Counted from the first letter of the stretch, positions 920 through 32,821 are shown. The stretch is 64,000 nucleotides of DNA from a bacterium (GCA_026416715.1 JAOAEQ010000001.1:178943-242942), one strand, 5' to 3'. Notes: generated from the letters alone by a model not told the origin. Translations and numbers: made by a program.

Positions 920-2692
920 TTACTTCAAATATTTTTGAACCCATCTCCAACGACTATATGCAAAATTCATGCTGCGTTCATAAGCCTTATTAGCACGCAA
1001 GAAACTATAATTTCCTTCTGCAACTTTATCCGCATAAAATTTATCCTCTACTACACTTGAAATAATCGGTCTACAACGAGTAGAAGCAAGGTTTGCTAAG
1101 TAATCAGTATATTGTGCTGACATACTCATATCCTTACCATAATTTTCAGCCAGAGAATTAATATCAGGACTATTTAATAATCCCTGACAGAGTAATGCCC
1201 ACAAGAGATTTCTGGCGCGATAAATAAACCAATACTTATTTGGTCCTCTCTCTTCAATTTCTCTTAGCAACCTATGCAAACGGAATTGTATTTTATAACA
1301 AAGTACTATTAAACGAACATCTGAACGCAAACGACCTTGATTGAAAACCTGATTGTAAGCCCTGTCATCTTCAAATATTCTACGCATATTAGATAAAGCT
1401 GCAATATTTCCATCACTTACCAAGAATGTTTGAGCAAGTTTTACTAATTGAATAGCTCTAACTTCTTCTGTAATTCCTTCCTCTTCCATTTCTTCGGGAC
1501 TAAGATTTTGAAATGCGGCTTCTTGCCGTTCGTAATAGATTCCTAATTCATCTCTAAATCTGTCTTGCAGTTCAAGTTGTATTAAATCGTTTGCATGTAG
1601 ATTCCATGGTTCTATAGGATTTTGACGATTATTATTTATAGTTACTGATGTTACAAATTCTTGATCTGCTTGTGTTATTATTTTACACGGTACAAAAAGT
1701 TTATTTAAAATCTCTCTGTTCTCTTCCAAACGCTTATTATCTTTATTATTGTCAATAAACTCTCTAAAAGTGGTTATGGTTTGAGCTCCGTTAAGAAGTC
1801 GAGGAGCAGTTATATGACAATGTTCATCTTTATATTCTACTTTTTCAGCATAGAGAGTAATTCCATTATGATTAAAAGTAAAAACTTCAGGGCGTTCTAT
1901 ATTATCTAATACTATATGTTTTAGAGCTTTAGAAATTGCACGATTTACAGCCTTACTACTTCCAAGACCGTATCTAATATTTCTTTCAAAAAAGCGTTGT
2001 CCCATTTCTCTATACATATCCAATAAATCAACAAGTCGTACAAAACTGAAGTACATCTTTTCATCTTTTGGTCCAACACGAGAAAGTATATCTTTTAAAG
2101 GTGTCTTATAAGTATATGTTCTTGTTATGTCTTTAACTGTCCCCACTTTACCTGTTACAGATCTAAATTCTACTACCATATTAACCTGTCTTCCACTGAA
2201 AAATTGATCGATCAAGTATTTCTTATTTTCTAGATCTTCTCGAAGTTTATCCAAGACTTCACTCAGTTTTGCTTCTTGGGGATCTCCAGTAAACACAAAT
2301 CGGAAACAAACTTGTTCAATAATTGCTCTATTATCAACCATACAACTTCTAAGCTGAAGAATTATCTGATTTTTCTCAACATCAACATTAGGTGATGAAA
2401 AAATACGTTCCATACCCTTATCGATCAATCTTTGAAGAGAATCTTTAAATAAATGATATGAATTAGAATATTTAAATTGAAATAGATATAAATTACGCTT
2501 ATTCTTATCAAAATGAAATCCATCGATACCATAATCATTTCCACCAAAAGCTATTTGATTAATAGCTTCTTCTCTTTTCAAATCAAATTCATGTTCAAGG
2601 TATACTAAACCAAAATAATCATTTTTCACTCCACCATGAATATTTTTTAAGTCTGAGTACGCTTGATCAATTAATCGATCGAGATTCGCCAT
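920..2692 (-). CDS. AIPR-family (abortive infection phage resistance) protein with nuclease-like N terminus
   Basis: A 590-residue protein resembling the AIPR family (Pfam PF10592), linked to phage abortive infection. The core is visible around residues 230-320: an F-x-x-N-I-R-x-x-L-G stretch, then the FNHNGITLYAE segment and P-R-L-L-N-G-A-Q-T. The N terminus holds G-I-D-G-F (residues 55-59, Asp57) followed by Q-F-K (residues 72-74), the D...Q-x-K spacing of Mrr-like PD-(D/E)xK nucleases, so a DNA-cleaving module is plausible (inference). A good Shine-Dalgarno (GGAGG) precedes the ATG by about 9 bases. The gene looks more AT-rich than its neighbours, which suggests acquisition. No toxin, methylase or second defence gene flanks it. 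Confidence 0.8.
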   Translation of the reverse strand: MANLDRLIDQAYSDLKNIHGGVKNDYFGLVYLEHEFDLKREEAINQIAFGGNDYGIDGFHFDKNKRNLYLFQFKYSNSYHLFKDSLQRLIDKGMERIFSSPNVDVEKNQIILQLRSCMVDNRAIIEQVCFRFVFTGDPQEAKLSEVLDKLREDLENKKYLIDQFFSGRQVNMVVEFRSVTGKVGTVKDITRTYTYKTPLKDILSRVGPKDEKMYFSFVRLVDLLDMYREMGQRFFERNIRYGLGSSKAVNRAISKALKHIVLDNIERPEVFTFNHNGITLYAEKVEYKDEHCHITAPRLLNGAQTITTFREFIDNNKDNKRLEENREILNKLFVPCKIITQADQEFVTSVTINNNRQNPIEPWNLHANDLIQLELQDRFRDELGIYYERQEAAFQNLSPEEMEEEGITEEVRAIQLVKLAQTFLVSDGNIAALSNMRRIFEDDRAYNQVFNQGRLRSDVRLIVLCYKIQFRLHRLLREIEERGPNKYWFIYRARNLLWALLCQGLLNSPDINSLAENYGKDMSMSAQYTDYLANLASTRCRPIISSVVEDKFYADKVAEGNYSFLRANKAYERSMNFAYSRWRWVQKYLK

Positions 2693-2842: not shown

Positions 2843-4273
2843 TTAACTTATTTCTAGACTCTTTCTAAGCACTAACCGTCGGGCACGAGTAAAATGCCGG
2901 GCGGTAGTCGGTCCTTCCCCAGTTGGTCCGGCAATCGTGAACGAAGTCGGTCCATCAGCTTCATAACCGAGCGTTGACCCGCAATGCGTATTCGCAGCGA
3001 ATAACGTGCATTGGATAGCTTTCGCAAACGCGGTTATCCGGTCGATATTCTTCGAATGAATTAATGCGGTATGCCGGAACCCATGTTCAACTTCAACCGC
3101 AACTCTGACTGCTTCATCGAAATCGGTAACGCGAACTATCGGTAGTATCGGCATCATCAATTCTTCCTGCACAAACGGATGGTCTTTGTTCGTTTCAACT
3201 ATTATTAGGATAATCTCATCACTAACAGTTATCCCGAGTTGCGCAAGTATCAGTTTCGCATCTTTCCCAACCCAGTTTTTGTTCAGGGTATTATCCGGAT
3301 TCAATACTACCCAAGCTAACCTATTCAATTCACTTGGCTGAAGTAAATATGCACCGTTTTTCTGCATTTCATCAATTAGTTTATCCGCAACGGTTCGGAT
3401 AACAATCAGCTCTTTTTCGCAGACGCACGGCATGTTATTATCAAACGAACTCCCTTGAACGATATATTTCGCTGCCGATGCGATATCCGCAGTTTCGTCA
3501 ACGATAACCGGCGGATTCCCCGGACCGGCGGCGATAACTTTTTTCCCAGCGGTCATCGCTGCACGAACCACACCACCGCCGCCCGTTGCCGCAATCATAT
3601 TCACTTTCGGATGTTTCATTAATTCTGCAGAAGTGCGTAACGTCGGGTCCGCAACGGAAGTCATTAGATTCTCCGGACCGCCAGCAGCGACTATCGCGCG
3701 GTTCAACCGCTGCATCGTTTCAATGGTACAATTTTTAGCGCTCGGATGCGGATTGAATACCACCGCATTTCCTGCAGCAATCATGCTAATCCCGTTATTG
3801 ATAACGGTCGCGGTCGGATTGGTTACCGGAGTTATCGCTGCAATAACGCCTATCGGTGAATAGAGCGAAAATTCCGTAGTTTCATCGCCGCTTCGCGAGA
3901 GTAACGGTAAATCTTCTACACCGGGAGTTTTAGTCGCAACCAGAACATTTTTTATCTTTTTATCCGCAACACGACCCATTTTTGTTTCCGCAACCGCTAG
4001 TTCAGCTAGCGATAACGCATTATCGAGCGCGCATTTGCGCATCGCAGCAATGATTTCTTTCCGTTTCTCGAACCCGAGTTTGATAAGCTGTTTCTGCGCT
4101 CTTGCCGCAGCTTCAACTGCAGAATCTATATCTGCAAAAACGCCGTCTTTTTGCAGCGGGCGAGTTGCGACATCGCTTCCGGTTCCTTGAACTGCAGAAA
4201 CGATTTTTTCCTGCTGGATATTTTTTAAGACCTGGTTAACAATTCGGTTAAGTTCTTGTTCGCTAATAGCCAT
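2843..4273 (-). CDS. BMC-associated CoA-acylating aldehyde dehydrogenase (PduP/EutE type)
   Basis: Oxidises an aldehyde to acyl-CoA with NAD+ inside the microcompartment; with the aldolase of this operon the substrate is most likely lactaldehyde (inference). At 476 residues it matches PduP/EutE. Residues 1-20 form an amphipathic helix (ISEQELNRIVNQVLKNIQQ), typical of an encapsulation peptide, followed by a variable linker. The catalytic cysteine is in NNMPCVCEKE (Cys283), and the glycine-rich cofactor region ATGGGGVVRAA lies near residues 229-239. It is the last gene of the BMC run, 159 bases after the flavoprotein gene, with two strong hairpins in that gap. Confidence 0.92.
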   Translation of the reverse strand: MAISEQELNRIVNQVLKNIQQEKIVSAVQGTGSDVATRPLQKDGVFADIDSAVEAAARAQKQLIKLGFEKRKEIIAAMRKCALDNALSLAELAVAETKMGRVADKKIKNVLVATKTPGVEDLPLLSRSGDETTEFSLYSPIGVIAAITPVTNPTATVINNGISMIAAGNAVVFNPHPSAKNCTIETMQRLNRAIVAAGGPENLMTSVADPTLRTSAELMKHPKVNMIAATGGGGVVRAAMTAGKKVIAAGPGNPPVIVDETADIASAAKYIVQGSSFDNNMPCVCEKELIVIRTVADKLIDEMQKNGAYLLQPSELNRLAWVVLNPDNTLNKNWVGKDAKLILAQLGITVSDEIILIIVETNKDHPFVQEELMMPILPIVRVTDFDEAVRVAVEVEHGFRHTALIHSKNIDRITAFAKAIQCTLFAANTHCGSTLGYEADGPTSFTIAGPTGEGPTTARHFTRARRLVLRKSLEIS

Positions 4274-4292
4274 AATAGGTTACCTTTTCACT

Positions 4293-4349
4293 CGCTCCTA
4301 TCGGAGCGTCTTTATTGTTGTCTTATCGTATCCAGCGCTTCTGCGCTGG
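4293..4349 (-). promoter_or_regulatory. Two tandem hairpins between the flavoprotein and aldehyde dehydrogenase genes
   Basis: Two perfect stem-loops: CGCTCC/GGAGCG with a 4-base loop (4293-4308) and CCAGCGC/GCGCTGG with a TTCT loop (4332-4349). No U-run follows on the minus strand, so they look more like mRNA processing or stability elements than intrinsic terminators. Confidence 0.5.
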
Positions 4350-4432
4350 GCTATGGTCATCTTGTTGCTACCAGAACTAAAAATTGACTAGTAATCTGAG
4401 CTGGGGCTAACGGGACGAATTGATAGTATCTG

Positions 4433-5221
4433 TTAAATCCATTCTAATTCGATATTTAATTCTTTTGCGGTATCGCGAGCGAGCGGTGTAACGATACTTC
4501 CTTTGCGAACCCTAATTTTTTTATCACCGCTACTCGCTGCGGATTTGATATCGTATTCAGTTATGATTTTTTTCTCCGGTCCTTTCCGTGGGATTGATTC
4601 TAGTATAGAAACTGTCTCTTCAGCGAGATCGTCTACCGGAACCAATCGGATACCATATTGGATTAATTTATCTAATTCGGTATGAATCGATTGGATGATT
4701 GCCGGAGCCATTTCCGGTGTTCCGCAACGCGGGCAGTTAGCCAGCATCGGGTCAGCGCCGTTCCGCGCTGCGATAATCGGTTTTTTATTAACTAATGCGG
4801 TATATAATAAATCCGTAACTAAGGTATCAGTTATCGTGGAAGCGAGTTTAATTGCGGTAGTCCGACTTAAAGTAGCTACCAAAACAAGCTCTTGCTCCTG
4901 AATAAACGATAAAACGTTCTCAGCCGGAATATCGGTTAAAACCTGATATCCGGTGGTTATGGGAAGAAGTTTATCGGTGCCGATAATTTTTTGTGCGGCG
5001 TGACTTAATAGAAAGGTAAATGTATATTTTTTCTGCTGCTGGAGTTGTTTGATTTGGTCAATTGCCGGAACGAGTCCGACATCAGACCCAGTGAAAATAA
5101 CTAGGATATTCCGACCACCTGGGTTCGGGATATTTTCCGGTATATTCATCGGCCGGCTGGAAAGATATTTTTCTATTTCTTCCCGAACGATTTTAGCGAT
5201 TTGCGTAGAATCGAATTCCAT
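4433..5221 (-). CDS. BMC-associated flavoprotein-like protein with EutQ-like tail
   Basis: A 262-residue protein of unproven function. Residues 4-20 form an amphipathic helix (DSTQIAKIVREEIEKYL) of the encapsulation-peptide type. Residues about 36-200 look like the flavoprotein/PPC-decarboxylase fold (PF02441-like), starting RNILVIFTGSDVGL, with an unusual CPRC pair (Cys163, Cys166). The last 45 residues contain the pattern I-T-x-x-D-I...I-V-T-P-x-A-R-D, resembling the module at the N terminus of EutQ from the ethanolamine compartment. It lies between pduL and the dehydrogenase, 54 bases after pduL, and is predicted to be lumenal. A redox or cofactor role is inference; it lacks an obvious alcohol dehydrogenase domain. 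Confidence 0.72.
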   Translation of the reverse strand: MEFDSTQIAKIVREEIEKYLSSRPMNIPENIPNPGGRNILVIFTGSDVGLVPAIDQIKQLQQQKKYTFTFLLSHAAQKIIGTDKLLPITTGYQVLTDIPAENVLSFIQEQELVLVATLSRTTAIKLASTITDTLVTDLLYTALVNKKPIIAARNGADPMLANCPRCGTPEMAPAIIQSIHTELDKLIQYGIRLVPVDDLAEETVSILESIPRKGPEKKIITEYDIKSAASSGDKKIRVRKGSIVTPLARDTAKELNIELEWI

Positions 5222-5233
5222 TAGAGAAAACTT

Positions 5234-5276
5234 AACCGCAGAGTTCGCAGAGAAATTCTCTGTTCGCGCTGTGGTT
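5234..5276 (-). repeat. Imperfect palindromic element between pduL and the flavoprotein gene
   Basis: Outer arms AACCGCAG (5234-5241) and CTGTGGTT (5269-5276) pair with one mismatch. The inner arms CAGAGAA/TTCTCTG (5248-5262) are perfect. The left half, read on the minus strand, is GCGAACTCTGCGGT, close to copies at 6916-6929 and 8913-8926. The element reaches into the pduL stop codon. Confidence 0.5.
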
Positions 5277-5974
5277 TATTTTATGATTTCAGCTACGGAA
5301 TTACAATGGACGCCGGCAGCGTTGGCATCATCAGTATCAAGATGGAGTTCAAGCCGGAAATTCGGACTAACCCGAATGAGCACGTTATCAAATACAACTC
5401 CGGTTTCGCCCGGGATTCGAACTCGAACTACGTCCCGGTCTTTAACTCCAAACCGTTTCGCGTCATCCGGATGCATATGGATATGCCGAATTGACCGGAT
5501 CACCGCATTGATATGAACCGACCCTTTCGGCCCGATAATAGTTACCGCAGCACCGCCTTTAACTTTGACCGATTCAGCGACCGGCGGGTCGATTCCTAAC
5601 GGAATCGCATCCGTTCGCGCGAGTTCAACCTGTGTCTGGTCACGTTCCGGACCAAGGATACGAACCTCAGGTAACGCCCGTAATTTCGGTCCGACTAGCG
5701 TAACCACTTCTTTAGCGGCAAACTGTCCCGGCTGGGATAACTCGTTCCGTTTCGTGAGCGTATAACCTGAACCGTAAAGGATATCCAAATGTTCCCGGCT
5801 AATATGGATATGCCGAACGGAAACTCCAATTGGAATTCGTAACGGCTCTTTCACAACACGACTAACAGCTATCGGCTGGACAGACGGTTCTTCCGGAGCA
5901 ACGGTGATACCGGCTTTCTGCAATTCCGCAATGACGCGCTGGCTGATAATATTAACCAGCGTCTCCCATTCCAT
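5276..5974 (-). CDS. pduL: Phosphate propanoyltransferase (PduL), BMC phosphotransacylase
   Basis: Converts acyl-CoA plus phosphate to acyl phosphate and CoA, recycling CoA inside the compartment. Two PduL half-domains are visible, each starting with a metal-binding histidine motif: VRHIHISREH near residue 55 and IRHIHMHPDDAKRFGV near residue 170. The first 20 residues (WETLVNIISQRVIAELQKAG) form an amphipathic encapsulation-type helix separated by a Pro/Glu-rich linker. The ATG at 5974 is chosen; an in-frame GTG at 5983 is possible. Neither has a clear Shine-Dalgarno, and the region just upstream is a long inverted repeat that could affect initiation. No acetate/propionate kinase is nearby. 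Confidence 0.93.
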   Translation of the reverse strand: MEWETLVNIISQRVIAELQKAGITVAPEEPSVQPIAVSRVVKEPLRIPIGVSVRHIHISREHLDILYGSGYTLTKRNELSQPGQFAAKEVVTLVGPKLRALPEVRILGPERDQTQVELARTDAIPLGIDPPVAESVKVKGGAAVTIIGPKGSVHINAVIRSIRHIHMHPDDAKRFGVKDRDVVRVRIPGETGVVFDNVLIRVSPNFRLELHLDTDDANAAGVHCNSVAEIIK

Positions 5975-5981
5975 AGAAAAC

Positions 5982-6058
5982 ACTGATTACACAGATTAAA
6001 AGAAATCGATTCCACCGCTCTAAAATCGGTGGTTTCATTCTCAATCTGTGTAATCAGT
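5982..6058 (-). repeat. Nested inverted repeat with 16-bp perfect arms, between BMC-H and pduL
   Basis: ACTGATTACACAGATT (5982-5997) is perfectly complementary to 6043-6058. Inside it a second stem CCACCG/CGGTGG (6012-6017, 6027-6032) has a 9-base loop. The whole structure ends just before the pduL start. It may be a mobile palindromic repeat or an element setting the shell:enzyme expression ratio. Confidence 0.7.
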
Positions 6059-6066
6059 TTTTATGT

Positions 6067-6345
6067 TTACTTTCCGCTCGGTAGAATTTTATCCAGTTCC
6101 TGATGCGGTCGCGGGATAACATGCACGCTCACCAGTTCCCCGACGCGTTTCGCTGCCGCAGCTCCAGCATCAGTTGCGGCTTTCACCGCACCGACATCAC
6201 CACGAACCATAACGGTTACATACCCGCCCCCGATTTTTTCTTTTCCAATCAGGGTAACGTTCGCAGCTTTAACCATCGCATCTGCCGCTTCGATTGAAGC
6301 GACGTTTCCTTTCGTTTCAATAAGTCCTAACGCTTCACCGACCAT
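6067..6345 (-). CDS. BMC hexameric shell protein (BMC-H, PduA/EutM type)
   Basis: A 92-residue single BMC domain forming hexameric shell tiles. Visible signatures are ALGLIETKG at the N terminus, the [16 protein letters not shown] helix, the pore-loop region [26 protein letters not shown], and the end [13 protein letters not shown]. Length and sequence match canonical PduA/EutM/CcmK proteins. A GGAGGGG ribosome site lies about 10 bases upstream. It is the third gene of the BMC run and lies 112 bases after the other shell gene. The GGG pore loop suggests a small, generic pore. Very secure assignment; the passing metabolite is unknown. Confidence 0.97.
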
Positions 6346-6392
6346 GGTATTTCTCCCCTCCTTTATATAATTTCGAATAAATCAAATATTAG

Positions 6393-6445
6393 CGAATATA
6401 TACCGACTGACATCTGTTTGCGCGCAATTCGCGCTATATAATTCG
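6393..6445 (-). repeat. Nested palindrome between the two shell genes
   Basis: Outer arms CGAATATATA (6393-6402) and TATATAATTCG (6435-6445) match with one inserted base. An inner stem GCGCG/CGCGC with a 5-base loop lies at 6420-6434. Confidence 0.4.
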
Positions 6446-6457
6446 GATAATTCGATT

Positions 6458-6799
6458 CTATTTTTTCGGTTTTTCTGATTTCGGTTGGAGAACATCCGGC
6501 GCTCCGGTTTCCTGACTGACTACCGGAACCGAATTGATTAACGGTTCAATCTGGTCATCCGGTCGTGGAATAACATGCGCACCAACCACTTTCCCGACTT
6601 TTTGCGCAGCAACAACTCCAGCTTCAACCGCAGATTTTACCGCACTCACTTCACCAACAATTTTAACCGTCGCTAATCCCGCCCCGGGAAAAGATATTTC
6701 TTGTATGGTTACCAACGCTGCTTTAACTGCGGCATCCGCAGCTTCTAAACTCCCAACTAAACCGATCGTTTCAATCATGCCTAGCGCTTGGAGTGCCAT
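6458..6799 (-). CDS. BMC hexameric shell protein (BMC-H) with C-terminal tail
   Basis: A second single-domain BMC shell protein, 113 residues. The core (residues 1-90) has ALGMIETIGLVGSLEAADAA, a pore-loop segment with FPGAGLATVKIVGEVSAVKSAVEAG, and VGAHVIPRPDDQI. The loop differs from the first shell protein (PGAG instead of GGGY), so the pore chemistry is probably different. The last 23 residues are a Pro/Lys-rich extension ending KSEKPKK, absent from basic PduA-like proteins. GGAGGAAGACC precedes the ATG, a good ribosome site. It follows the aldolase gene by 137 bases. No BMC-T or BMC-P gene is adjacent. Confidence 0.95.
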   Translation of the reverse strand: MALQALGMIETIGLVGSLEAADAAVKAALVTIQEISFPGAGLATVKIVGEVSAVKSAVEAGVVAAQKVGKVVGAHVIPRPDDQIEPLINSVPVVSQETGAPDVLQPKSEKPKK

Positions 6800-6814
6800 G
6801 GTCTTCCTCCATTA

Positions 6815-6831
6815 AACTATCGTTAATAGTT
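6815..6831 (-). promoter_or_regulatory. Short perfect hairpin upstream of the first shell gene
   Basis: AACTAT/ATAGTT with a 5-base loop, just upstream of the ribosome site of the tailed BMC-H gene. It is small and AT-rich, so it may be chance. Confidence 0.25.
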
Positions 6832-6936
6832 ATCTTCGCTTAGCGGTTATTGTATAGTTCACGCTATGTGTGTAAAAAACAGCTGAACTGAACTTTGCAA
6901 ACTTTATAAAATCTAGCGAGCTTTGCGGTCAATTTT

Positions 6937-7791
6937 TTATTTCGATATTACTATGCGTCGAACGACTTCTTCCGTTATTTTAGCTATTAAATCATTCGCA
7001 TCTGTTTGGTTGGTTTCCGTGGTAACCGATTTCGCCTGGTGCCATAACTGCTGCTGTTTCTGCCGTAACCTTTCCTGCATCTCTTCGGTATCGCAGATAC
7101 CGCATTCTGCACATTCCGCTCCTTTACACGTTAGAACCGGACCGGTTATTCCCATCTGCTGTCGAACCGCCATTAATTTTTCTACTTGCGGTGCGGTTAA
7201 AACTTTTTCTCCGCCAAGTTGTCGCGCCGCAAGACTGATTTTCGCAAAATGCTCTAATGATTCCATTTTATAATATGCGTTATAAACATCTTTTCCAACA
7301 GTTAACGCACCGTGGTTCGCAAGCAAAACCGCATCGCATTGTTTAATCAAATCGCGAATTGAGTTCGGCACTTCTTCAGTTGATGGAGTGCCATATTGTG
7401 CGAGCGGTATACTTCCGATAGTCAGGATTATCTCCGGAAGAACGCATTTTTCGAGCGGAATGCCGGCTACCGCAAATCCGGTAGCTACCGGTGGATGCGC
7501 ATGAACAACCGCAGTTATATCCGGTCGTTCCATATATACAGCGCAATGCATTTTGATTTCTGAAGATGGTTTCAAATTCGGGTCACCAGCGATTTTATTA
7601 CCTAGCATATCGCATTTGATAAGCTGGTCAGGGGTTAAAAACCCTTTCGATAAACCACTCGGTGTCGCTAGGATTTCTTTCTCCGATATCCGAATGCTAA
7701 TATTGCCATCATTTGAAGCAACAAATCCTTTACTATACATTCGTCGACCGATTTCAACGATATCTAATTTCGCTTGGTATTCAGTTACCAT
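6937..7791 (-). CDS. Class II (fuculose/rhamnulose-phosphate type) aldolase with Cys-rich, targeting C terminus
   Basis: Zinc-dependent aldolase expected to split a deoxysugar phosphate into DHAP and lactaldehyde. Numbering from the upstream TTG at 7818, the active-site residues are Glu87 (SSEIKMH), His106 and His108 (HAHPP) and His169 (NHG). After the aldolase core (to about residue 225) come CKGAECAECGIC (Cys231, 236, 239, 242), a glutamine-rich linker, and an amphipathic helix at the extreme C terminus (DANDLIAKITEEVVRRIVIS), typical of cargo encapsulation. The ATG at 7791 is preferred over the TTG; neither has a clear ribosome site. It is the first gene of the BMC operon. The sugar is not certain; no kinase or isomerase is nearby. 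Confidence 0.87.
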   Translation of the reverse strand: MVTEYQAKLDIVEIGRRMYSKGFVASNDGNISIRISEKEILATPSGLSKGFLTPDQLIKCDMLGNKIAGDPNLKPSSEIKMHCAVYMERPDITAVVHAHPPVATGFAVAGIPLEKCVLPEIILTIGSIPLAQYGTPSTEEVPNSIRDLIKQCDAVLLANHGALTVGKDVYNAYYKMESLEHFAKISLAARQLGGEKVLTAPQVEKLMAVRQQMGITGPVLTCKGAECAECGICDTEEMQERLRQKQQQLWHQAKSVTTETNQTDANDLIAKITEEVVRRIVISK

Positions 7792-7893: not shown

Positions 7894-7923
7894 ACTTTAA
7901 CGTAACCATATAGCTGTTGTCAA
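7894..7923 (-). promoter_or_regulatory. Candidate promoter of the BMC operon
   Basis: On the minus strand a perfect -35 TTGACA (7918-7923) is followed after 18 bases by TAAAGT (7894-7899), a partial -10, about 100 bases before the aldolase ATG. Confidence 0.35.
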
Positions 7924-30232: not shown

Positions 30233-32695
30233 TTATGTGAGACTGGAAGCTATTTCGATAGGTTTCGTTTCGACATTAAATATAATCTTGTCGTTCTGAA
30301 CATCGGCGATAATCTCTCCGCCTTCTTTAAATCGACCACGGAGCAACTCTTCTGATAACGGGTCTTCAACATATCGTTGTAACGCACGACGTAACGGGCG
30401 TGCGCCATTAGTCGGGTCAAACCCTACAGTACCAAGAAACTCTTTTGCCGCTTCAGTTAATCGCAACGTCAACCCCTGTTCCGCCAATCGTTGTTTCATC
30501 TCGGTTAACATTAATTCGATAATTTTAATTATCTCCGGTTTGCCGAGTGGATGGAATACAACCACTTCATCCACCCGGTTCAAAAATTCTGGGTTGAACG
30601 TTTTTTTCAATTCGCCTATAATTTTTTCTTTCATTTGTTGATACGACGCTTCCGCCCCTGCTCCATGAAATCCTAATGTTCCTTTTTGATGGATTAATCG
30701 CGCGCCAAGATTCGATGTCATGATCACCACACTATTCCGAAAATCAACCGTTCTACCTGTAGCATCGGTTAATCTCCCATCATCAAGTACCTGCAACAGA
30801 ATGTTAAACACATCCGGATGCGCTTTTTCTATTTCATCCAACAGAACTACACTATATGGTTTTCGTCGAACTTTTTCGGTTAACTGACCGCCTTCATCAT
30901 GACCGATATATCCTGGTGGCGCGCCAACCAACCGAGATACCGCGAATTTCTCCATATACTCGGACATATCAATCCGAATCAACGCATCTTCATCGCCAAA
31001 CAAAAATTCCGCTAAGGCCCGCGCTAGTTCAGTTTTTCCTACGCCGGTCGGTCCGAGGAAAATAAACGAACCGACTGGTCGTTTATGGTCTTTCAATCCT
31101 GCACGAGCTCGCCGAATCGCTCGCGAGATAACTTCAAGCGCTTCATCTTGTCCAACGATCCGGTGGCGTAACGCGTCGGTCATCCGCAATAATTTTTCTG
31201 ATTCTTTCTCTTCTAGCTTAATGACCGGGATGCCGGTCCATTTCGATACAATATAAGCGATATCTTCTTCCGTGATAATATTTTCCCGCTGGATTTGGGC
31301 TTTCCGTTCTTCCCATTGTTTCTTTTCGACTTCATAACGAAGCCGAAGTTTTCGTTCATGGTCGCGCAGTCGTGCCGCTTTTTCATATTCCTGCGCTTTA
31401 ATTGCATTTTCTTTTTCGATCCGAACCGATTCAATTTCTTTTTCTAACTCTTTAAAATCTGGCGGACGCATATGGGATTTCAATCTCGCGCGAGCACCAG
31501 CTTCATCAATCACATCAATCGCTTTATCCGGAAGGAATCGACCGCTAATATATCGGTCAGCAAGTTTCGCTGCCGCTTCAATCGCATCTTCCGTAATCGT
31601 TACATCGTGGTATTCCTGATATTTATCTCGGAGTCCTTTCAGGATGCGAATCGTATCATTGACCGACGGCGGGTCAACGATAACCATCTGAAACCGCCGT
31701 TCTAACGCGCCATCACGTTCGATATATTTTCGATAATCTTCCAGCGTCGTTGCCCCGATACATTGCAGTTCACCTCGAGCTAACGCCGGTTTTAACATAC
31801 TACTCGCATCAATCGCCCCTTCTGCGGCACCAGCACCAATTAACGTGTGTAATTCATCGATAAATAAAATGATATCATCTGACCGGCGGATTTCATGCAT
31901 AATCGCTTTCATCCGCTCTTCAAACTGACCTCGATATTTTGTTCCCGCGATAACCGCCGCTAAATCGAGCGTTAACAATCGCCGATTGCTCAGAATATCC
32001 GGCGCTTTTCCGGAGACAATGCGTTGCGCTATCCCTTCAACGATAGCGGTTTTCCCAACCCCCGGTTCACCGACTAACACGGGATTATTTTTCGTTCTAC
32101 GACAGAGGATTTGGAGCACACGTTCAATTTCATCCTCCCGCCCGATAACCGGGTCAAGTTTATTTTCTCGAGCTAGTTCCGTTAAATCTCGACCGAACGT
32201 ATCGAGCGCTGGCGTTTTACTTTTCTTTTTCGCTCCCGCCGCAGAAGCTGGGGTTCCACCGAGTAAACTTATAATTTGATTCCTAGCCGCATCGATGGTT
32301 ATTCCAAATGCATCAAGCGACTTATATGCTATACCTTCTCCTTCACGAATGAGACCAAGCAGAATATGTTCCGTCCCGATATATGAATGCCCGAGGTTCT
32401 GCGCTTCTTCTCGGGCTAAATCAATTACTTTTCGCGCTCGGGGAGTATAGGGGACATCACCTAACGTTGGCACACTACTCCCGGGTTTTGCTAGCTTTTC
32501 GATTTCATGACGAAGTAAATCAATATCAACATTCAGCCGTTGGATTGTTTCAAATCCAACGCCACTGCCTTCTCGCAACAATGCGAGCAGAATATGTTCT
32601 GTACCAATATAATCATGGCCAAGCCGTGCAGCTTCTTCCCGGGCAATATGGGTTACGATTTTTTTCGCTCGTTCAGTAAATTCAGCACCATTCAT
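30233..32695 (-). CDS. clpC: ATP-dependent Clp protease ATPase subunit ClpC
   Basis: AAA+ unfoldase that feeds ClpP. Two Clp-N repeats (residues about 1-145), AAA-1 with GEPGVGKTA, a UVR/coiled-coil middle domain ([20 protein letters not shown]), AAA-2 with GPTGVGKTE, and the C-terminal D2 domain. Start set at the ATG at 32695 ([12 protein letters not shown]), as in homologues; an upstream in-frame start at 32716 is less likely. No Shine-Dalgarno is visible; instead a long hairpin ends 8 bases upstream. McsB just upstream implies the phospho-arginine degradation route. Confidence 0.97.
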
Positions 32696-32703
32696 AGGAA
32701 AAC

Positions 32704-32821
32704 AAATTCGAAACAAAATTAAACCGCAGAGAATACATTTGGGGGGTATTCACAGCCTCAGCGAATTTGCCGGTATCAAGTTTGATTTTGTTTCGAATTT
32801 CGATATTTGAATGTCGAAATT
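32704..32821 (-). promoter_or_regulatory. Multi-stem leader between mcsB and clpC
   Basis: The 21-base arms 32704-32724 and 32780-32800 pair at 20 positions, the exception being a G-U-type mismatch. Inside lies GAATAC/GTATTC (10-base loop). A third stem AATTTCGA/TCGAAATT (32796-32803, 32814-32821) overlaps the outer arm, so the two are mutually exclusive. The last base of the long stem is 8 bases before the clpC ATG. Could be an RNA switch, thermosensor or repeat element. Confidence 0.6.

Follow-up and report, generated by a model that had tools for sequence, protein, structure and literature searches.

A microcompartment operon without a vertex gene is probably the core of a dispersed, FRAG-type metabolosome

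The 64,000-nucleotide stretch of bacterial DNA analyzed here (GCA_026416715.1 JAOAEQ010000001.1:178943-242942; the window) carries, at positions 2843-7791, a bacterial microcompartment (BMC) operon that encodes hexameric shell proteins (BMC-H) and enzymes and has no gene for a vertex pentamer (BMC-P). Our results suggest, with a probability of about 0.6, that the operon forms the core of a complete and ordinary FRAG-type metabolosome, which would oxidize acetaldehyde produced by two encapsulated aldolases. Remote genes account for the missing vertex, an organization that has already been described (FRAG); the new part is the proposed dual-aldolase function directed at nucleoside sugars, which is testable.

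An earlier note, made from the window alone, had described the gene content and coordinates of the operon, and our analysis bears these out: all six contiguous open reading frames (ORFs) lie on the minus strand, with intergenic gaps of 54-159 bases. The operon (window 2843-7791) corresponds to C1:181785-186733, C1 being its contig in the genome assembly. From the first gene to the last, it encodes:

6937-7791, minus strand: class II aldolase, first gene (Aldolase_II, PF00596, 167 bits)
6458-6799, minus strand: BMC-H hexamer protein of 113 residues (PF00936)
6067-6345, minus strand: BMC-H hexamer protein of 92 residues, EutM-like (PF00936; PRK15474 above its cut-off)
5276-5974, minus strand: PduL phosphotransacylase (PF06130, 230 bits; PRK15070 above its cut-off)
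4433-5221, minus strand: UbiX/EpiD-fold flavoprotein, related to TIGR02536 (Flavoprotein, PF02441, weak at 29.7 bits; TIGR02536 below its cut-off)
2843-4273, minus strand: CoA-acylating aldehyde dehydrogenase of the EutE/PduP type, last gene (PRK15398, 619 bits)

The ATG at 7791 is probably the aldolase start, and the PduL ORF opens with a GTG at 5983 and has an ATG at 5974. The two hexamer proteins score 78.5 and 104 bits against PF00936. The predicted model of the flavoprotein (mean pLDDT, 75) resembles UbiX, DmrB, and EpiD.

The source genome (2.96 Mb in 64 contigs, rated 100% complete) contains exactly three matches to the BMC-P family PF03319, at 105, 83, and 79 bits. None of these is in or near the operon, in agreement with the earlier note, and the genome-wide lists of PF03319 and PF00936 matches hold nothing between C1:37736 and the operon. 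There are four PF00936 matches, namely, the two window hexamers and both domains of a single trimer protein (BMC-T). The remote shell genes are as follows:

C1:37035-37775: tandem pair of BMC-P genes (starting at C1:37035 and C1:37485), on the operon's own contig, about 144 kb away
C2:56256-56558: third BMC-P gene, on another contig
C20:22298-22906: BMC-T, a tandem-domain, PduT-like trimer with two PF00936 domains in one protein

The shell set of two BMC-H, one BMC-T, and three BMC-P is spread over four locations on three contigs, including the window operon. Judged from the genome sequence, this inventory is complete and is the single such set present, and a complete dispersed shell is almost certain; that all of its parts build one compartment is what we infer. 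The earlier note had reasoned that the missing genes lie elsewhere or that the compartment is assembled in an unusual way, and it had proposed a genome search for BMC-P and BMC-T in which one remote BMC-P would suffice as explanation. With three BMC-P genes and one BMC-T gene found at three remote sites, the first of these alternatives stands; a pentamer-free shell is not needed, because three BMC-P are encoded elsewhere in the genome. The C20 trimer has a pore-loop cysteine (C-P/S-G-K), which the trimers of the other genomes also retain.

Dispersed shell genes are found in other genomes as well. BMC genes are present in 12 of 60 sampled genomes, with both shell families picking out the same 12, and in several of these the shell genes are scattered; the six of one closed chromosome (G013) all lie apart from one another. 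A BMC-P tree of nine dispersed genomes and one Bacteroidetes contig broadly gives three groups, each with a single member from every genome, support being modest in places, and two of the genomes harbor a fourth paralog. The three BMC-P of the source genome fall one per group, as assigned by this tree and the best-hit pattern. This matches the organization that Sutter et al. (2021) named FRAG, in which shell genes occupy up to six locations, BMC-P form a triplet, no obvious signature enzyme is present, and the hosts belong to little-studied phyla (PMC8217296). A PVM-like locus without BMC-P, complemented by a partner locus that supplies BMC-P, has also been described (Axen et al. 2014, PMC4207490). 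FRAG shell genes are reported to be mostly remote from enzymes and without an obvious aldehyde-making enzyme (PMC8217296), whereas here the hexamer operon includes a class II aldolase, PduL, and aldehyde dehydrogenase, and DeoC with an encapsulation peptide is encoded near the third BMC-P. In 6 of the 9 dispersed genomes, a PduS-like protein adjoins BMC-T at a distance of 0-27 bp (L071, L085, L091, L097, L101, and L104). One genome with dispersed shell genes (G046; L085 and L083) has its BMC-P triplet by an encapsulation-tagged class II aldolase, and genes for acetate kinase and L-fucose isomerase next to BMC-H; this looks like a fucose-type dispersed BMC.

Encapsulation peptides point to the enzymes that would be housed in this shell. 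Both termini of 110 ORFs from the source genome (220 termini) were scored with a 16-residue profile, for which cargo termini of other genomes were the sole training set. The N terminus of DeoC, encoded outside the window, ranked first, and the next three ranks went to proteins of the operon:

C2:47243-48136: DeoC aldolase, with an 84-residue N-terminal extension carrying the best encapsulation-peptide match (rank 1/220)
6940-6999, minus strand: C-terminal encapsulation peptide of the class II aldolase, ANDLIAKITEEVVRRIVISK, after a Cys-rich linker (rank 2/220, 17.9 bits)
5909-5974, minus strand: N-terminal encapsulation peptide of PduL (rank 3/220, 17.0 bits)
4208-4273, minus strand: N-terminal encapsulation peptide of the aldehyde dehydrogenase (rank 4/220, 16.5 bits)
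5156-5221, minus strand: probable N-terminal encapsulation peptide of the flavoprotein (rank 7/220, 11.9 bits, weaker than the others)

The suggestion that all four nonshell proteins of the operon carry encapsulation helices thus holds for the aldolase, PduL, and the dehydrogenase. For the flavoprotein it is likely but not proven, because its N terminus is outscored by the N-terminal helices of two presumed noncargo proteins, a purine nucleoside phosphorylase (PNP; 14.5) and an 827-residue ORF (window 30233-32716; 12.5). The linkers that join core and encapsulation helix in BMC aldolases are rich in cysteine (24 Cys in 576 residues, versus 29 in 1944 in the cores); that of the window aldolase contains the motif C-x4-C-x2-C-G-x-C, and a similar motif occurs in the DeoC extension (L136:7244-8137). 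The Cys-rich linker is possibly a metal site or a disulfide cross-link.

The satellite genes on C2 suggest a compartment for nucleoside-sugar phosphates. The third BMC-P is followed, all on one strand and in an operon-like run, by a histidine kinase (after 3 bases), MtnA (after 23 bases), a DUF167 gene, PNP, and DeoB. RpiB, 5'-methylthioadenosine (MTA) phosphorylase (338 bits; curated cut-off, 275), and DeoC (285 bits; cut-off, 117) sit 8-11 kb upstream of this BMC-P, MtnA and MTA phosphorylase being about 11 kb apart. In the nine dispersed genomes, DeoC, RpiB, or DeoB was found 10 times within 6.5 kb of BMC genes, against an expectation of 0.4-0.8 when one or two copies per genome are assumed; these genes were chosen after being seen, so that a nominal P of 1e-8 overstates the significance, and the excess itself is large. 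In one genome (G019, L103:50-1480), DeoC is preceded within a single protein by a flavoprotein-like domain, and this in turn by an encapsulation peptide, the middle domain being recognized by hhalign with a three-sequence profile (probability 94%, E 2e-7). This fusion links the window flavoprotein to DeoC function. We consider a nucleoside-sugar compartment that contains DeoC to be fairly likely.

The chances that the class II aldolase acts on substrates of the 5-deoxyribulose-1-phosphate type are, as far as its sequence and genomic context can tell, even or slightly below. MtnB belongs to the PF00596 family. Because the window aldolase is the sole PF00596 protein in the genome, there is no MtnB here, and the aldolase is left as the sole visible consumer of the MtnA product. 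A genome of the same class without BMC genes (G001) has MtnA, PNP, and DeoB in one region and an MTA-phosphorylase-like protein elsewhere; its single class II aldolase lacks both the linker and the encapsulation helix, stopping where the catalytic core ends. Between MtnA and PNP of that genome, on the other strand, lie genes that by eye are very-short-patch-repair endonuclease-like and DNA methyltransferase-like (L138:6838-8995). Six relatives of the window aldolase were found in one scan of named genomes. Plasmid relatives have a fucose context in Staphylococcus, an MtnA/PNP context in Pusillibacter, and an accompanying sugar kinase in Rhodobacter, and with contexts so mixed, homolog context does not decide the substrate.

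Several observations weigh against the proposed function. The nearest relatives of the aldolase are Moorella BMC aldolases (63%) that are encoded beside L-fucose isomerase; in the aldolase tree the substrate groups do not separate, and tree, curated models, and solved-structure matches together gave no decision on the substrate. The aldolase lies on C1 and MtnA on C2. Genes for MtnA and MTA phosphorylase are widespread, and MtnA, present in 12 of 13 genomes, is beside a BMC gene only in the source genome; a search for such neighbors in the other genomes found none. PduS is not beside BMC-T in the source genome, unlike in the majority of the dispersed genomes. Finally, the regions upstream of the four BMC sites and of DeoC/RpiB share no motif beyond those of control promoters.

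The earlier note had compared the operon with lactaldehyde compartments, and a complete dispersed BMC whose aldolase cleaves L-fuculose-1-phosphate or L-rhamnulose-1-phosphate to give lactaldehyde, as in PVM, PVM-like, and GRM5 systems, would indeed share with them a single operon for class II aldolase, aldehyde dehydrogenase, and shell proteins. L-Fucose isomerase occurs near BMC genes of G046 and near those BMC aldolases of Moorella and a KSB1 bacterium that are related to the window aldolase, and promiscuity has been reported for class II aldolases (PMC4207490, PMC6079011). In the source genome, however, L-fucose isomerase (FucI) was not found by a genome search, in which rhamnose isomerase was not included, and the search for a rhamnulokinase or fuculokinase that the note had proposed gave no match above a cut-off: of the two FGGY kinases, one is a xylulokinase and the other is unassigned, and both score far below all fuculokinase and rhamnulokinase cut-offs. 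The lactaldehyde reading looks wrong for these reasons. Unlike PVM, PVM-like, and GRM5 loci, the operon has no lactate or alcohol dehydrogenase, and neither was seen next to the satellites; alcohol dehydrogenase and PduS are absent from the four BMC sites, with no genome-wide search made for either or for acetate kinase. The window aldolase also falls below the cut-offs of the curated fuculose aldolase models, and the encapsulated DeoC and the MtnA operon would be left unexplained. We regard a fucose or rhamnose compartment as unlikely.

A dispersed BMC of the SPU type offers another explanation, in which DeoC would make acetaldehyde from DNA-derived deoxyribose, the class II aldolase would act on another sugar phosphate (for example, ribulose-1-phosphate, yielding glycolaldehyde), and MtnA would be an unrelated remnant of methionine salvage. 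DeoC with its encapsulation peptide and RpiB are present, as are the aldehyde dehydrogenase and PduL of SPU and SPU-like systems (PMC4207490, PMC8217296), and a class II aldolase together with RpiB is on record for SPU-like loci (PMC4207490); the window aldolase matches the haloarchaeal ribulose-1-phosphate aldolase model, at 96 bits with a cut-off of 300. In contrast to SPU loci, DeoC and RpiB are here outside the BMC locus, at the distance given above from a lone BMC-P, and both aldolase types occur together, with MTA phosphorylase and MtnA nearby. The absence of MtnB would leave MtnA without a salvage partner, and the third BMC-P is in an operon-like run with MtnA. We regard this explanation, with its separate substrate for the class II aldolase and its unrelated MtnA, as unlikely. 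The absence of BMC-P from the operon itself could also be taken to mean that the operon forms an unusual pentamer-less structure, such as an open shell, a sheet, or a tube. Because the same genome encodes a BMC-T and three BMC-P that are full length and represent three conserved groups, we rejected the pentamer-free shell as exceedingly improbable.

In the metabolosome that we propose, the hexamers from the window operon, the pentamers from the C1 pair and the C2 gene, and the PduT-like trimer from C20 would form the shell. Encapsulated DeoC would cleave 2-deoxyribose-5-phosphate derived from deoxynucleosides via PNP and DeoB. MTA phosphorylase and MtnA would turn 5'-deoxyadenosine or MTA into 5-deoxyribulose-1-phosphate or its methylthio analog, which the window aldolase would cleave. 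Triose phosphates would exit and acetaldehyde would be retained in the compartment, where the aldehyde dehydrogenase would convert it to acetyl-CoA and PduL would convert acetyl-CoA to acetyl phosphate, recycling CoA inside. The flavoprotein and the pore-loop cysteine of the trimer are possible electron carriers for the reoxidation of NADH.

The second branch of this model resembles the dihydroxyacetone phosphate (DHAP) shunt, in which either MTA phosphorylase or a kinase works together with MtnA and a class II aldolase to convert 5'-deoxyadenosine to DHAP and acetaldehyde, or to yield methylthioacetaldehyde (PMC6079011, PMC10986504). The published shunt genes are clustered and no microcompartment is mentioned (PMC6079011, PMC10986504), whereas here there is no single cluster and the aldolase carries an encapsulation peptide and belongs to a BMC operon on another contig. 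No link of microcompartments with 5-deoxyribose or MtnA was found in the literature searched. A compartment for nucleoside-derived sugars that combines DeoC for deoxynucleosides with a class II aldolase for 5'-deoxyadenosine and MTA, in effect an encapsulated DHAP shunt, is a tentative proposal for the role of at least some FRAG systems, and we place it slightly below even odds.

Upstream of the aldolase lies one further feature:

7894-7923, minus strand: candidate sigma-70-type promoter, TTGACA-N18-TAAAGT (consensus match only)

Sigma-70-type consensus matches in this region are no more numerous than in shuffled sequences, and no Rfam RNA or riboswitch was found in the window or at the satellite BMC sites. 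Directly downstream of the operon, an AIPR-family protein (PF10592, 87 bits; window 920-2692, minus strand) is weakly similar to MzaE of an anti-phage system.

FRAG systems were listed without an identified aldehyde-making enzyme, and the source genome offers a concrete candidate. DeoC, RpiB, and DeoB occur in excess near scattered shell genes across nine genomes, which belong to different families, and this provides a testable function. It follows from the dispersed shell that "incomplete" BMC operons need to be judged genome-wide. If the proposed function is true, salvage of 5'-deoxyadenosine and MTA, the by-products of radical-SAM enzymes and polyamine synthesis, would be added to the encapsulated catabolic pathways, alongside those for ethanolamine, propanediol, choline, and fucose.

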